Origin: Isosphaeraceae bacterium EP7
Lineage (GTDB): Bacteria; Planctomycetota; Planctomycetia; Isosphaerales; Isosphaeraceae
Reading direction: 5' to 3'
Length of the DNA stretch: 64,000 bases
Assembly: GCA_038400315.1 (NCBI GenBank)
Contig: CP151667.1
Coordinates: 2,925,174-2,989,173 of the forward strand
In this document: positions 7,430-62,993 of the stretch, one piece after another
Position numbering within the stretch: the first letter of the stretch is position 1
Layout of the letters: every line of letters starts with the position of its first letter
Notes under the pieces: model-generated
The model's database searches: none
What the model was told of the DNA's origin: nothing
What the model saw: only the letters and a program-made list of their open reading frames with translations
Position numbers and translations under genes: made by a program

Positions 7430-7782
7430 TGGGCACGCCTCCTTGCGTGACGCATCGACCGCCTCGCCCGATCGCCTTCCAGCGATGGCGACCTCGCGAG
7501 GCAGGTGCGAACTGGACTCATTCGCCGAATTGTTCAGGCCGGATCGCTCTCCCGGCCGGGAGCGAGTCGAAGCCGCGTGGGACGCGAGATCTCAAGCGAG
7601 CGTCGTTCGAGGTGTGACGTCGGGGTGGCGGTGGCTCGAAGCATGCGAGTCAGGCCGGGAGACGAGACGATGGACCTGCGAGGCGCGAGTCCGGCTTCGG
7701 AGGGCATCTCGATCGGGCAGCAGAGACGGGTCGGGATCTCGGGGATTCCACCGAGGGCCGATCCATCACGCTCGGTTGAAGA
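7430..7782. other. intergenic region, nothing recognised
   Basis: About 350 bp lie between the MMPL exporter stop and the start of the serine hydrolase, both on the minus strand. The region presumably contains the hydrolase promoter, but no clear -35/-10 pair, hairpin or reading frame could be singled out. Confidence 0.4.
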
Positions 7783-56619: not shown

Positions 56620-59600
56620 TCAGGCCGGGGACAGGGCCGAGACGGACTTGCTGGCGACGGAGGCCGTGGCCGGGGACGACGGGGTGGCCGTCAGCGTCGT
56701 GGTCGACCGCCGGGGCGCGACGCCCTGGACGAGCCGGGCGCGGGCGGCGAAGGAGGGGGCCGCGACGACGACCTTGGGGGCGGCGGCCGTCGAGGCGGGC
56801 GGCGCGGAGGCGGCCGCGAGGGAGAGGGTCGAGGGCTGGATGGCGGCGACCGAGGCGGTCGCGCGGTTCCCGCCGTTGGTGATGACCGTGTACTTCTTCA
56901 CCAGCGGCACGTCGCCGCTGCCGGCCCGGCCCCAGACGACCGTGTTGGCCACCACCGGGCCCGTGGCGTTGCGGGTGAACCAGCGCGCCGTGGCGGGGGT
57001 GTAGACGGCCAGGTCGGCCTTGCCGTCGCCGTCGTAGTCGCCTGTGATCGGGATGTCCGAGCCGCCGGCCAGGCCCCAGAGGATGTACTGGGCCGGGAGG
57101 CCGGTCGAGTAGCGGATCACCCAGGTCGCCGAGGCGGGGGTGTAGGTGGCGATGTCGGCCTTGCCGTCGCCGTCGAAGTCGGCCGCGACCGGCACGTCGC
57201 CGGCGCTGCCCCAGATGACGGAGGTGGCCGACAGGGCGGCCGAGTTGCGGACGATCCACTCGGCCGTGTTCGGGTTGAAGACGGTCAGGTCGGCCTTGCC
57301 GTCGCCGTCGAAGTCGACCGCCACGGGCAGGTCGGCCGAGCCCGCCCGGCCCCAGACGATGACCGCCGGCGTGGCGCCCGAGGTGTAATGGATGAACCAC
57401 TGCGCCGTGGAGGGGTTGTACGCGGCGATGTCGGCCTTGCCGTCGCCGTCGAAGTCGGCCACCACCGGCACGTCGTTGCTACCGGCACGGCCCCAGACCA
57501 GGGCGATCGGCGCGGCGCCGGTGGACTGCTTGACGTACCAGACCGACGAGCCATGGTCATAGGTGGCGATGTCGACCTTGCCGTCGGCGTCGAAGTCGCC
57601 GGAGAGGATCGTCGTCGTGCCGGCCGTGTTGCCCCAGACCGTCGCCGACGACCCGCCCGAGGAGTTGCGGATCACCCACTGGGCGCTGTCGGGCATGTAC
57701 ACGCCGATGTCCGACTTGCCGTCGCCGTCGAAGTCATTGGCCACGGCGGGCTTGACCACGAACGGGGTGACGTCGACGGCCCAGGGCTCGGCGCCGGTGA
57801 GGCCGTTATCGGCGCTGACGAGCAGCTTCGACGCGCCGATCACGCCCAGGACGATCGGGTTGGAGTTCGTCACGCCCGGGGCGAATTCCTGGGCAAGCAC
57901 GGTGCCGGCCGTGGTTCCGTCGGTCTGCCAGAGTTCGATCCCGCGGGTGCCGTCGTCGGCCGAGAAGTAGAGGGTCGTACCGATGACGGCGAAGTTGGAG
58001 AGGAACGAGCTGAAGATCCCCGGCCGGATGTCCTTGACCAGGACGGTCCCGGCGGCCGTACCGTCGGACTTGTAGAGTTCCCTGCCCGAGGCCACCACGG
58101 CCGAGAAGTAGACGGCCCCGCCGAAGGCCGTGATCTGCGTCGGCACAGAGCCGGTCGCGCCGGGGTTCAGGTCGGTGACCATCGCCGTGCCGGCGGACGT
58201 GCCGTCGCTCTTCCAGAGTTCCGGGCCGTTCGTGCCGTCGTTGGCGAGGAAGTAGATCGAGTTGCCAAGGACGACGAGCCGCCGGCTCGTGGACGCGTCG
58301 TCGGAGGTCGCGAAGCCGTCGAGGGCCCCAACGCGAATGTCCTTGACGAGCGTGGTGCCGGCGGTGGTGCCGTCGGTCTTCCAGAGCTCTCGGCCGCGGG
58401 TGCCATCATTGGCGACGAAGTAGACGGTCCCGTTGAGGCTCTGGAACATGGTCGGGCTCGACCCGGCCGTCCCCGGGTTGACGTCCTTGAGCAGGACCGT
58501 GCCGGCGGCCGTTCCGTCGCTCTTCCAGGGCTCGATCCCGTTGACCGCGTCGATCGCGGAGAAGTAGAGCGTGCCGCCGAGGTAGGTCAGGTTGCTTATC
58601 TGCGAACCGGGGCCGGGGTTGATGGCCTTGACCAGCGCCGTGCCCGCGGTGGTGCCGTCGGTCTTGTAAAGCTGCCTGCCCAGGGTGGGATCGACGGCGG
58701 TGAAATAGAGGGTGTTCCCCCCCACGATCAACGATGCCGGGGAGGCGTCGGCCGGGCCCGGGTTGATGTCCTGGATGATGCGAGTCCCGGCGTCGGTGCC
58801 GTCGCTGGTCCAGAGCTCCGAGCCGTAGGTGGCGTCGGTGCCGGCGAGGAAGAGGGCCCCCTTGAAGACGACCATCGAGCTGACGTTGCCGAGCTTGGCC
58901 GTCACCTTGGTGGTCCCGGCGGCCGTGCCGTTGGTCCTCCAGAGTTCGTTGACGGCGCCGTCGGGCGAGGCGATGAAGTAGGTGAAGCCCCCCAGGACGA
59001 CGGCGTTGACCGGCTCGGAGCCGATGGTGCCGGGGCGGATGTCCTTGACGAGCGCGGTGCCGGCGGCGGTTCCGTCGGTCTTCCAGAGCTCGAAGCCGTG
59101 GGGGCCGTCATTGGCGGCGAAGTAGACGGAGCCGGCCACACCGGCGAACGCGGCGGCCGCGGAGGTCTGGCTGAAGCCCAGGAAGGAGCTGGCCACGCCG
59201 GGGCGGATGTCCTTGACGAGCGCGGTGCCGGCGTTGGTTCCGTCGGTCTTCCAGAGCTCATAGCCGACATCGGCCCTGATCGCGGAGAAGTAGACCGTCG
59301 ATCCGATCGCGGTCAGGCCGTCGGGCGAGGAGTTCGAGGCGCCCGGGTTGATGTCCTTGAGCAGGACCGTGCCGGCATTGGTGCCGTCGGTCTGGTACAG
59401 CTCGATGCCGGCGGCCGCGGTGGTGGCCCTGAAGAGCAGCGAGTTGCCCAGTACGACGAACTGCGAGGGGCTGGAGTTGCTGGCGGCAGTGCCCGCGTTG
59501 ACATCCTTCAGCAGGACAGTGCCGACGGATGTGCCGTCGCTCTTCCAGGGCTCGGCGCCCACGACGCCGTCATTGGCGGCGAAGTAGAGGGCCCCATTGA

Positions 59601-60492
59601 AGGCCTTGATGTTGGTGGCCGAGGGGTCCAGGCCGGAGGCGTTGCCCGTGCGGATGTCCTTGACGAGCGAGGTCCCGCCGGAGGTGCCGTCGCTCTTCCA
59701 GAGTTCCGTGCCATTCGTGCCGTCATTGGCGGCGAAGTAGAGCGTGCTGCCGATCGTGGCCCAGCGTGCGTCGAGCGCGTAGTTGCTCGTGATCCCCGAG
59801 GTGATGCCCGGGTTGATGTCCTTGACGAGGACCGTGCCGACGGCGGTGCCGTCGGTCTTGTAGAGCTCGGTCCCCGTCGCCGCGTTCAGGGCGGCGAAGT
59901 AGAGGGTGGTGCCGATGGCCGTCAGGTTGGTGGGCAACGACGGGTTGGCGCCCGGGTTGATGTCCTTGAGCAGGAACGTCCCGCCCTCGGTGCCGTCGGT
60001 CCTCCAGAGCTCGAAGCCGTTGACTCCGTCATTGGCGTTGAAGTAGAGCAGCCCGTTGCCGCCGTCGGTCAGGCGTGCAGGGTAGGAGCCGACGACGCCC
60101 GGATTGATATCCTTGACCCTCACCGGGGCGGCCGAGCCGGTGATCTTGTAGAGCTCGGGCTCATCGGCCGCGGTTGATCCGGAGAAGTAGAGCGAGCCGC
60201 CGCTGACGACCGGGACCGAGGAGACGACGACCCCCAGGTCGGACACCTTCTGGGTGCCGGCCGCGGTGCCGTCGGTCTTGTAAAGCTGCGAGTAGAGGGC
60301 GTTCGTGCCATCGTCGGCCAGGAAGTAGGTCGAGCCGTTATAGACGATGGGCGCAACGACGTTCGCGTTGTTCCCGTTGGTGTTGATGTCCTGAAGCAGC
60401 GACGCCGCCATCAGCGTCCGGGGCTCCATGACCTCGACGCGGGGGCCGAGCGGGCCACGGGCCTGCGCCCGCCTGCGATTCGGTCGATTCAT
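56620..60492 (-). CDS. ELWxxDGT-repeat and FG-GAP/VCBS surface protein
   Basis: A 1290-residue protein. The basic N-terminus R-R-R-A-Q-A-R-G-P-L-G-P-R-V-E-V-M-E-P-R-T-L-M matches the LEPR-xLL-type export or sorting signal of large planctomycete proteins, with Met for Leu. About seventeen repeats of the form E-L-(W/Y)-x-x-D-G-T-x-x-G-T follow, spaced about 50 residues apart, each with L-V-K-D-I-x-P-G and Y-F-x-A-x-D-G. From about 960, six units of D-F-D-G-D-G-K-(A/S)-D-(I/L) form an FG-GAP propeller with calcium-like loops. The tail is Ala/Ser/Thr-rich. It is presumably surface-bound; the ligand is unknown. The gene is transcribed toward the perfect terminator. Confidence 0.88.
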   Translation of the reverse strand: MNRPNRRRAQARGPLGPRVEVMEPRTLMAASLLQDINTNGNNANVVAPIVYNGSTYFLADDGTNALYSQLYKTDGTAAGTQKVSDLGVVVSSVPVVSGGSLYFSGSTAADEPELYKITGSAAPVRVKDINPGVVGSYPARLTDGGNGLLYFNANDGVNGFELWRTDGTEGGTFLLKDINPGANPSLPTNLTAIGTTLYFAALNAATGTELYKTDGTAVGTVLVKDINPGITSGITSNYALDARWATIGSTLYFAANDGTNGTELWKSDGTSGGTSLVKDIRTGNASGLDPSATNIKAFNGALYFAANDGVVGAEPWKSDGTSVGTVLLKDVNAGTAASNSSPSQFVVLGNSLLFRATTAAAGIELYQTDGTNAGTVLLKDINPGASNSSPDGLTAIGSTVYFSAIRADVGYELWKTDGTNAGTALVKDIRPGVASSFLGFSQTSAAAAFAGVAGSVYFAANDGPHGFELWKTDGTAAGTALVKDIRPGTIGSEPVNAVVLGGFTYFIASPDGAVNELWRTNGTAAGTTKVTAKLGNVSSMVVFKGALFLAGTDATYGSELWTSDGTDAGTRIIQDINPGPADASPASLIVGGNTLYFTAVDPTLGRQLYKTDGTTAGTALVKAINPGPGSQISNLTYLGGTLYFSAIDAVNGIEPWKSDGTAAGTVLLKDVNPGTAGSSPTMFQSLNGTVYFVANDGTRGRELWKTDGTTAGTTLVKDIRVGALDGFATSDDASTSRRLVVLGNSIYFLANDGTNGPELWKSDGTSAGTAMVTDLNPGATGSVPTQITAFGGAVYFSAVVASGRELYKSDGTAAGTVLVKDIRPGIFSSFLSNFAVIGTTLYFSADDGTRGIELWQTDGTTAGTVLAQEFAPGVTNSNPIVLGVIGASKLLVSADNGLTGAEPWAVDVTPFVVKPAVANDFDGDGKSDIGVYMPDSAQWVIRNSSGGSSATVWGNTAGTTTILSGDFDADGKVDIATYDHGSSVWYVKQSTGAAPIALVWGRAGSNDVPVVADFDGDGKADIAAYNPSTAQWFIHYTSGATPAVIVWGRAGSADLPVAVDFDGDGKADLTVFNPNTAEWIVRNSAALSATSVIWGSAGDVPVAADFDGDGKADIATYTPASATWVIRYSTGLPAQYILWGLAGGSDIPITGDYDGDGKADLAVYTPATARWFTRNATGPVVANTVVWGRAGSGDVPLVKKYTVITNGGNRATASVAAIQPSTLSLAAASAPPASTAAAPKVVVAAPSFAARARLVQGVAPRRSTTTLTATPSSPATASVASKSVSALSPA

Positions 60493-60873: not shown

Positions 60874-61775
60874 ACTCCAGCTCGCAAGATCGAGACCAAG
60901 ACGTGAGGAAAACGGTCTAGAAAAGCCTCATCTGGCCCGAGCGAGGAGTTGGAGGAGTGAACCTCGATGAGTCGAGCGCGGGGAGGCGGCCGTCGAGGCC
61001 CAGGCGCCTGGCGCAGAGGCGGAAGAGCCCGGCGATCTGGCCGGCCATGGCGCCAGTGCCGGCCATCCGGGTGGCGAAGTCGCTGTCGTTGAGCCTGCCC
61101 TCGCGCGCCCGCCGGATCTGCGCCAGAACGCGGCCGGCCCGGCCGGGTTGCTCTCGCTCGAGCCACTCGACGAAGACGGGGGCGCCCGTCAAGGGGAGCC
61201 GCAGCAGCGTGTAGCCGGCCGACCCCGCGCCCGCCTCCCTGGCCGCCGCCAGGATCGCCGGGATCTCGGCGTTGGTGAGGCCGGGGATGACCGGCCCGAC
61301 CAGGACGCCGACCGGCACGCGCGTCGGCCAGGGCGCGGACGGCCCTGAGCCTCGCCGTGGGGGTGCTGGTGCGCGGCTCCAGCGACCGGACGAGCGCGGG
61401 GTCGAGCATGGTGATGCTCAGGTAGACATGGACGAGGTTCTAGCCGGCCATCTCGCGCAGCAGGTCCAGGTCGCGCAGGACGAGGGCGTTCTTGGTGATG
61501 ATGGTCATCGGCTGGTGTGCCTCCAGGGCCACCTCCAGGCAGGCCCGGGTGAGCCTGTAGTCGCGCTCGGCCGGCTGGTAGCAGTCGGTCACCCCGGACA
61601 TGGCGATCGGGTGGGCCTGCCAGGTGTCGCGGGCCAGGAAGTCGCGGAAGAGGCCGAGGGCGTCCTGCCTGATTATGATCCTGGTCTCGAAGTCGAGCCC
61701 CGCGTTCAGGCCGAGGTACTCGTGGGTGGGCCTGGCAAAGCAGTAAACACCCCCACTGCGTGCAATCTTAGGTGT

Positions 61776-62210
61776 TCACCGCTCCACAAGGACCGGAAGT
61801 CCGGTGGTTCCGTAATCCACTGGCTTCCCCTGAAAGTATTCCGATAGGGGGTCTTTTAGGACGGCACCGGGCGGTACCTTGCTGGATCGCTGGATTGCCA
61901 GAACGATCGTCGCCAGCCCCTCGCACCTGCCGAGTTCACGGGCGTTGTCGGCGGAACAGAGCGGACAGTCCTCCAGGTGGCGCAGGATTCCCGTGGGAGC
62001 CCGTGATGGGGCGTTGTAAATGGCCACGGCGATTCCGAGGATCAGCAGAATCAAGGCGGCTGGGGACAACAGGAGGTCTTTGAAGAATTTAGCCATTGGT
62101 GTCCGTTTGGGTGCGGCGACATGGGGGATCCAATATGGCGACGGCAGATCGGGGACGATGTCATCCGGCGGGGTTACGATCTCGCCGTTGCGGAATAGAA
62201 AGCCTCTCAC
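61776..62210 (-). CDS. small membrane protein within the insertion
   Basis: A 144-residue protein. A soluble N-terminus (D-I-V-P-D-L-P-S-P-Y-W-I-P-H) precedes one membrane helix (S-P-A-A-L-I-L-L-I-L-G-I-A-V-A-I-Y). Next come C-P-L-C and one further Cys (D-C-P-L-C-S-A-D-N-A-R-E-L-G-R-C), which could bind metal, and a C-terminal domain with A-T-I-V-L-A-I-Q-R. It starts with GTG 62210 behind AAGG; Met 62096 is an alternative. No family is recognised. It is the only substantial gene carried by the insertion. Confidence 0.6.
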   Translation of the reverse strand: MRGFLFRNGEIVTPPDDIVPDLPSPYWIPHVAAPKRTPMAKFFKDLLLSPAALILLILGIAVAIYNAPSRAPTGILRHLEDCPLCSADNARELGRCEGLATIVLAIQRSSKVPPGAVLKDPLSEYFQGKPVDYGTTGLPVLVER

Positions 62211-62306
62211 GAACCTTGCTTTTTTTCAACACATGAGCATAGAACAAATTAATGGCCATCCTTGGCCAACGGCGGTTTACTTAACAGGTGGGCCGAGCGG
62301 TTCTTG

Positions 62307-62438
62307 ATGGCACCCGATGACCTGTTCCACCAAGTCAAGGAGATGCTCGACTCCTGGAAGAAAGAGGCCCTCGACCTGGAGAAGCGAATCCAAGAGCAGA
62401 CCCTCACCGAGGGCGCGATTTACGACTTCACCAAATGA
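62307..62438 (+). CDS. short helical ORF (43 residues)
   Basis: The frame M-A-P-D-D-L-F-H-Q-V-K-E-M-L-D-S-W-K-K-E-A-L continues D-L-E-K-R-I-Q-E-Q-T-L, ending D-F-T-K. It is strongly helical and amphipathic, with a heptad pattern. There is no clear ribosome site. A second short frame (62534-62596) opens after a similar TCTTGATGG context. It could be a real small protein of the insertion or a decayed remnant. Confidence 0.35.
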   Translation: MAPDDLFHQVKEMLDSWKKEALDLEKRIQEQTLTEGAIYDFTK

Positions 62439-62993
62439 TGAGAATCCATCAAGAACAGCTTGATTGAAGTCATACCGCTGACTTGGACGCTGTCCCTCGA
62501 TCAAGGCGTTGAAGAGCCCGCTGGAGGGGTCTTGATGGAACCCGCCAAGCTTCGGTCAATGTTCAAGAACATGAAAATTAACCGCCTCACCTCATAGGAG
62601 CAGCCCCGGTAAGCGTTGATGCTGTAGCGGAACCCGACGTCGGGGCTGTCGTTCTCCGAGACGATCGACCTGGAGCGGTCGGGCAGTTACTCTGTGGGCC
62701 GGCGCCTCAGGGCTTCGAGGCCGTCCTCGTCGTGCTCCAGGTGCTCGAGGTCGAGCACGTGGTGCGTGCCGCCGAAGCGGTTGGGCGGGTCGATCTGCGA
62801 GCCTCGCCCCCCGGCGAGCGGGCGGTTGGGTTCGAGTGTCATCGACGGCTCCGGCCTGATCCTGTGTTCGCCCGTTCAGGACAACAACTGAACAGGACGA
62901 TGGAAACCGGGCGGGACAATTCGGGGCGGCGTGGCCCGGGATTCGCGGATTCTGGCGTGCTCAGGGGTCTCGGCACGGGCAGGGGGGGTGGAC

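Follow-up and report, generated by a model that had tools for sequence, protein, structure and literature searches.

A probable serine-integrase element remnant in the cysteine motif of a broken radical SAM gene from an Isosphaeraceae bacterium

Results

The window analyzed here, a stretch of 64,000 nucleotides from Isosphaeraceae bacterium EP7, carries a radical SAM (rSAM) gene of the PA0069 family on its minus strand (60917-62842) that is split at the CxxxCxxC motif. Its N-terminal half (residues 1-83; 62594..62842, minus strand) and its C-terminal part (60917..61742, minus strand) were delimited by translation and by tblastn against intact homologues. The joined halves scored 449.7 bits against NF033668, the PA0069-family model, for which the cut-off is 360, and this places the gene in the family. 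Since both halves match consecutive residues of full-length homologues, they belong to one gene. The split rSAM gene described in the initial annotation was therefore confirmed, and one of the findings that it had named as fatal to its reading, halves derived from different genes, did not materialize. The further stops that it had reported were also recovered by translation and tblastn: an in-frame TAA at 62687-62689 in the N-terminal half and a TAG at 61440-61442 in the C-terminal part, where a frameshift at 61289-61313 was found as well. No second rSAM copy was detected in the genome of the window, in which the only matches were the broken fragments themselves. Among 45 genomes of the same taxonomic family, tblastn gave an rSAM match of some kind in 37, and about 28 of the 45 have full-length genes at 50-70% identity. 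The closest intact relative (genome G026) is 70% identical over the whole length. The broken gene adjoins a 1290-aa protein of ELWxTDGT-type repeats (56620-60492).

The halves are separated by an 850-bp insert (61743..62592) with a GC content of 55.9%, compared to about 68% in its surroundings, which bears out the A/T-richer stretch of about 850 bp seen originally. The search for further copies that had been proposed was run at the DNA level and found the insert to be single copy in its 7.2-Mb genome; across this genome and the genus, which is represented by one genome, the insert matched only itself. No structural or packaging genes, which would mark a prophage, were found in the 850 bp. Neither an insertion sequence nor a terminal repeat was found in the insert, in agreement with the earlier remark that no terminal repeats were obvious. 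Large serine recombinases (LSRs) integrate at a 2-bp core and leave no target duplication. The lack of terminal repeats or target duplication is thus the expected outcome of LSR integration.

On the plus strand of the insert, the "short helical ORF" of the initial annotation runs on through two adjacent TGA codons up to the junction. BLASTP, profile and shuffling analyses identified this region (62262..62592, plus strand) as the C-terminal part of an LSR, so the statement that the insert has no transposase needs to be amended. In an LSR from G019, a genome described below, the remnant matches the stretch that directly follows the zinc ribbon on its C-terminal side (37% identity over 62 aa; BLASTP E value of 1e-11 for that pair). 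When the G019 LSR was compared with the whole 7.2-Mb genome of the window, the insert locus was the sole match (E 5.6e-5). A profile built from five LSRs that are sited in the rSAM gene elsewhere also found the remnant (E 2e-6), as its sole significant match in the 64-kb window. The last residues of the remnant (EPAKLRSMFKNMKI) can be aligned to the corresponding part of other LSRs, and for two LSRs the match to the tail was better than 300 of 300 shuffles. Short patterns from the G019 LSR, searched against the genome contigs and IMG/VR, returned its own contig and one distant match. The remnant can be aligned over only about 65-110 residues, with two stops inside, and it holds the C-terminal region alone, whereas its relatives at the same site have Resolvase, Recombinase and Zn-ribbon domains. 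The two stops, TGA-TGA at 62436-62441, stand where related LSRs have Trp-Trp (TGG-TGG). We read them as decay; descent from an element in which TGA meant Trp is less likely.

The insert also holds a 144-aa orphan ORF (61776..62210, minus strand) with one hydrophobic stretch and a CPLC motif, which had been described as a membrane protein. The ORF exists, but its length is within what chance would give, as a stop-free frame of at least this length was seen in 148 of 500 dinucleotide shuffles of the insert. Nothing convincing was found for it in Pfam, PHROGs, IMG/VR, plasmids or 398 genomes of the class; the searches returned two fragments only, with E values of 0.003-0.004 and with stops. It is possibly a remnant of cargo.

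Split rSAM genes were searched for in 398 genomes of the class Planctomycetia, and 20 of these were then examined more closely. Six genomes other than that of the window have both borders of an insertion at the same TG dinucleotide (G019, G072, G331, G243, G368 and G390), and two have a left border only (G278 and G341). An LSR lies against the junction in all of the six except G390. In G019, G072 and G331 the abutting LSR has Resolvase, Recombinase and Zn-ribbon domains; in G243 and G368, where the gene halves are on different contigs, the LSR was placed against the junction by homology. The C-terminus of the LSR points toward the N-terminal half in G019, G072 and G243, as it does in the window, and toward the C-terminal half in G331 and G368. 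These LSRs are 28-41% identical to one another. A clade of rSAM-targeting LSRs was considered and was not supported, the tree being poorly resolved and mixing in LSRs not seen beside the rSAM gene.

The occupants of the site vary in size and content. In G019 (Planctomycetales MAG clean336), the second split gene to come from the family search, about 8 kb lie between the halves. This element (L033 1246-9557) encodes the three-domain LSR, a phage capsid protein and a sigma-70 region 2 protein, with a weak, sub-threshold Rep (ORF2/G2P) match, and it could be a capsid-carrying satellite. A prophage of about 25 kb separates the halves on a 6.25-Mb contig of G331, with genes for terminase, portal, protease, capsid, tape measure, methyltransferase and LSR. 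The roughly 7.8 kb between the halves in G072 encode an LSR, a helix-turn-helix protein and a NADAR protein. The smallest occupant, about 0.7 kb in G390 (L069 3640-4360), has both TG cores; its only gene is of the Imm-NTF2 immunity type, and it showed no trace of an LSR. In the congener G080 the gene is intact, and the two G368 halves share 84% and 81% identity with it; this, along with the conserved endonuclease III gene upstream, indicates that both halves come from one host gene. The G368 element has an LSR tail at each of its ends: a nearly identical, inverted copy of roughly 70 bp from the 3' end of the LSR lies beside the left border (L057 ~1250-1320, L053 ~7700-7770).

Two further cases were observed at this motif. 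In an IMG/VR contig (L084), an rSAM C-terminal half begins at this motif, an LSR match lies no more than about 50 bp away, and the border is about 10 bp away from the TG core. In genome G330 (L076, G330:C348, 5-1789), the third cysteine of the rSAM gene is likewise the site of an in-frame insert of about 1 kb (CLAGDTL...VSHN|CYARP). This insert has a LAGLIDADG match and a weak intein-splicing match, and it is probably an intein at the very codon used by the LSR elements.

The borders were examined by comparing the junctions of the window with those of the eight other occupied sites. In the other genomes, the N side is host sequence as far as the TG in the third Cys codon, and host sequence restarts there on the C side. 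After the TG, the N side can read TGG (G368, G243), which is impossible for the host Cys codon, and before the TG, the C side can read TAA (G019, G072, G390), which is impossible for the host Tyr codon. Since neither is host sequence, the shared core is the TG with which the third cysteine codon of the CxxxCxxC motif begins. In the window, the putative crossover dinucleotide is the TG at 61741..61742 (minus strand), the first two bases of this codon in the surviving attR, at the same position as in all six two-border genomes. The C side fits an attR, with element sequence ending in ...GTGGGGGTGTTTAC, the TG at 61741-61742 and host sequence CTTTGCCAGGCC. In the window alone, GTTTACTG is also possible as host sequence, and the border is placed at or next to this TG only by analogy, because the junctions of the other genomes show that the bases upstream of the TG are element-derived. 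The six two-border cases therefore show insertion into one fixed attB, with a 2-bp core in common and without a long target duplication, and the right border of the window agrees with this.

The present left border, at 62592..62593, is where the host RGCSY codons end and the LSR remnant starts. It comes about 13 bp too early and inside the C-terminal region of the LSR; about 13 bp of host motif are absent, as is the TG core that would be expected here. Since this border lies away from the TG core, a deletion must be assumed, and a deletion across attL is the simplest reading. With attL deleted, attL and attR are not both present, and the insert is a remnant, not a functional element. An offset between the G019 insertion and that of the window was considered and rejected, as the junction alignment shows that the window lost its left border. 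The initial annotation had called for an uninterrupted homologue from a sister genome to fix the ends and any target duplication. The ends were placed at or next to the TG at 61741-61742 and at 62592/62593, with no target duplication, using the junctions of other genomes of the class for comparison.

Some of the occupied sites also have spare rSAM genes. In G072, a complete rSAM gene (L066 5066-6157) lies between the two borders, beside the stop-bearing C-terminal half. It shares 63% identity with the broken host gene and groups with full support in the tree with a gene of G152, from another family, so it is not a local duplicate. In at least this one genome, the element carries a full foreign copy of the rSAM gene that it disrupts. 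Full-length rSAM genes also follow the N-terminal half by about 120 bp in G368 (L057 147-1229) and G278 (L070 1511-2557), and they are likely inside an element. A clade of element-borne rSAM copies was not supported by the tree, in which the row fullG278 is out of frame and should be disregarded.

Discussion

We consider it highly probable that the insert is the decayed remnant of an LSR phage or phage-like element that integrated in a recurrent attachment site in the rSAM gene. The attP of the element would have recombined with an attB made of the conserved cysteine-motif codons, with the crossover at the TG of the third Cys codon that insertions elsewhere share. Recombination was presumably carried out by the integrase whose remnant is left, and its gene would have lain against attL with its 3' end toward it. 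The parent element may have been a phage, a satellite or something else. Later, most of the element would have been lost, including the catalytic half of the integrase, and the missing left border suggests a deletion that took attL, the last codons of the integrase and about 13 bp of host motif, so that the rest could no longer excise. The host gene, split and useless, would have gathered its stops and frameshift in a genome with no other copy. Lesions that arose after the insertion make for the simpler order of events.

The initial annotation had offered two explanations, a non-autonomous mobile unit or a replacement event. Insertion by a mobile unit holds, and a replacement event is not needed. 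The insert is probably the wreck of an element with a site-specific integrase of its own, related to those at the same dinucleotide elsewhere, and not non-autonomous by design. A related explanation, that a non-autonomous cassette with one cargo gene owed its integration to an LSR acting in trans from elsewhere, seems improbable. Such small occupants do exist at the site, as G390 shows, and the window insert is similar in size; however, the LSR fragment of the window has the place and orientation found in full elements, and G390 itself may be a deletion derivative. We give even less weight to two unrelated events, in which another mobile element was inserted and the LSR fragment is hitch-hiking debris. 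The fragment is short and the left border is off the TG core, but the right border falls where the LSR crossover lies in six other genomes, and the insert showed no sign of an insertion sequence or terminal repeat. An intein or a group I/II intron in a gene with a still working product was dropped as extremely improbable despite the G330 insert, with its LAGLIDADG and weak splicing matches at the same cysteine, and an NCBI model for intein-containing Rv2578c proteins, since the window insert has stops in all three host-sense frames, no splicing-domain match and an LSR tail on the opposite strand, and the rSAM gene has further stops.

LSR phages that target rSAM genes are already known, and the mechanism of the LSR element remnant is ordinary. 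The Streptomyces phage Samy has a serine integrase and an attB inside an rSAM gene of the Rv2578c family, which the prophage inactivates (PMC12924846); Rv2578c is the sister family of PA0069 in NCBI's models. Samy resembles the window in that a serine integrase uses an attB inside a conserved rSAM gene of this sister family. It differs in its actinobacterial host, its integrase of 510 aa and a cleavage site that is mapped to the gene but not exactly, and the available text mentions no spare gene copy (PMC12924846). When reverse-complemented, the 12-bp sequence reported for Samy attP (TCGGGTGTGTCG) might encode Arg-His-Thr-Arg, and these residues would fit directly behind the third cysteine. 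The phiJoe/SCO2603 elements are also serine-integrase elements of varied content and size that reuse one rSAM attB, and some are reduced to little beyond recombination genes (PMC5311408). In contrast to the site described here, theirs is in a different rSAM gene (B12-binding, SCO2606-like) with a GG core, and the phiJoe attB lies 74 bp short of the ORF end, which may allow the gene to survive (PMC5311408). The survey of Durrant et al. reports LSRs that are only distantly related and yet target one and the same conserved coding site, and the LSRs at the rSAM site resemble these with their mutual identities of 28-41%; its main text, as available, names neither radical SAM genes nor Planctomycetes (PMC10083194).

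Of wider interest are the element-borne spare gene and the fact that, in Planctomycetia, a codon of a catalytic motif has served repeatedly as attB. No published LSR phage that carries a replacement of its target gene was found in the papers searched, which is weak evidence of absence. We tentatively suggest, as a possibility short of an even chance, that diverse LSR phages and elements of Planctomycetia have a permanent landing site in the third-cysteine codon of PA0069-family rSAM genes. Some of these elements might carry a complete foreign rSAM gene that replaces the one destroyed, making the host dependent on keeping the element, and the window might then be an end state in which both element and enzyme have been lost.

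These findings turn an unexplained insert into a recognizable end stage of site-specific integration, decay and loss of the target enzyme. The recurrent attB in a catalytic-motif codon spans several families of Planctomycetia, and the LSRs, with their putative att junctions, are possible integration tools for bacteria that have few genetic tools. The foreign spare of the broken gene provides a handle on the role of the PA0069 family: if it were kept under selection, the enzyme would matter to the host.
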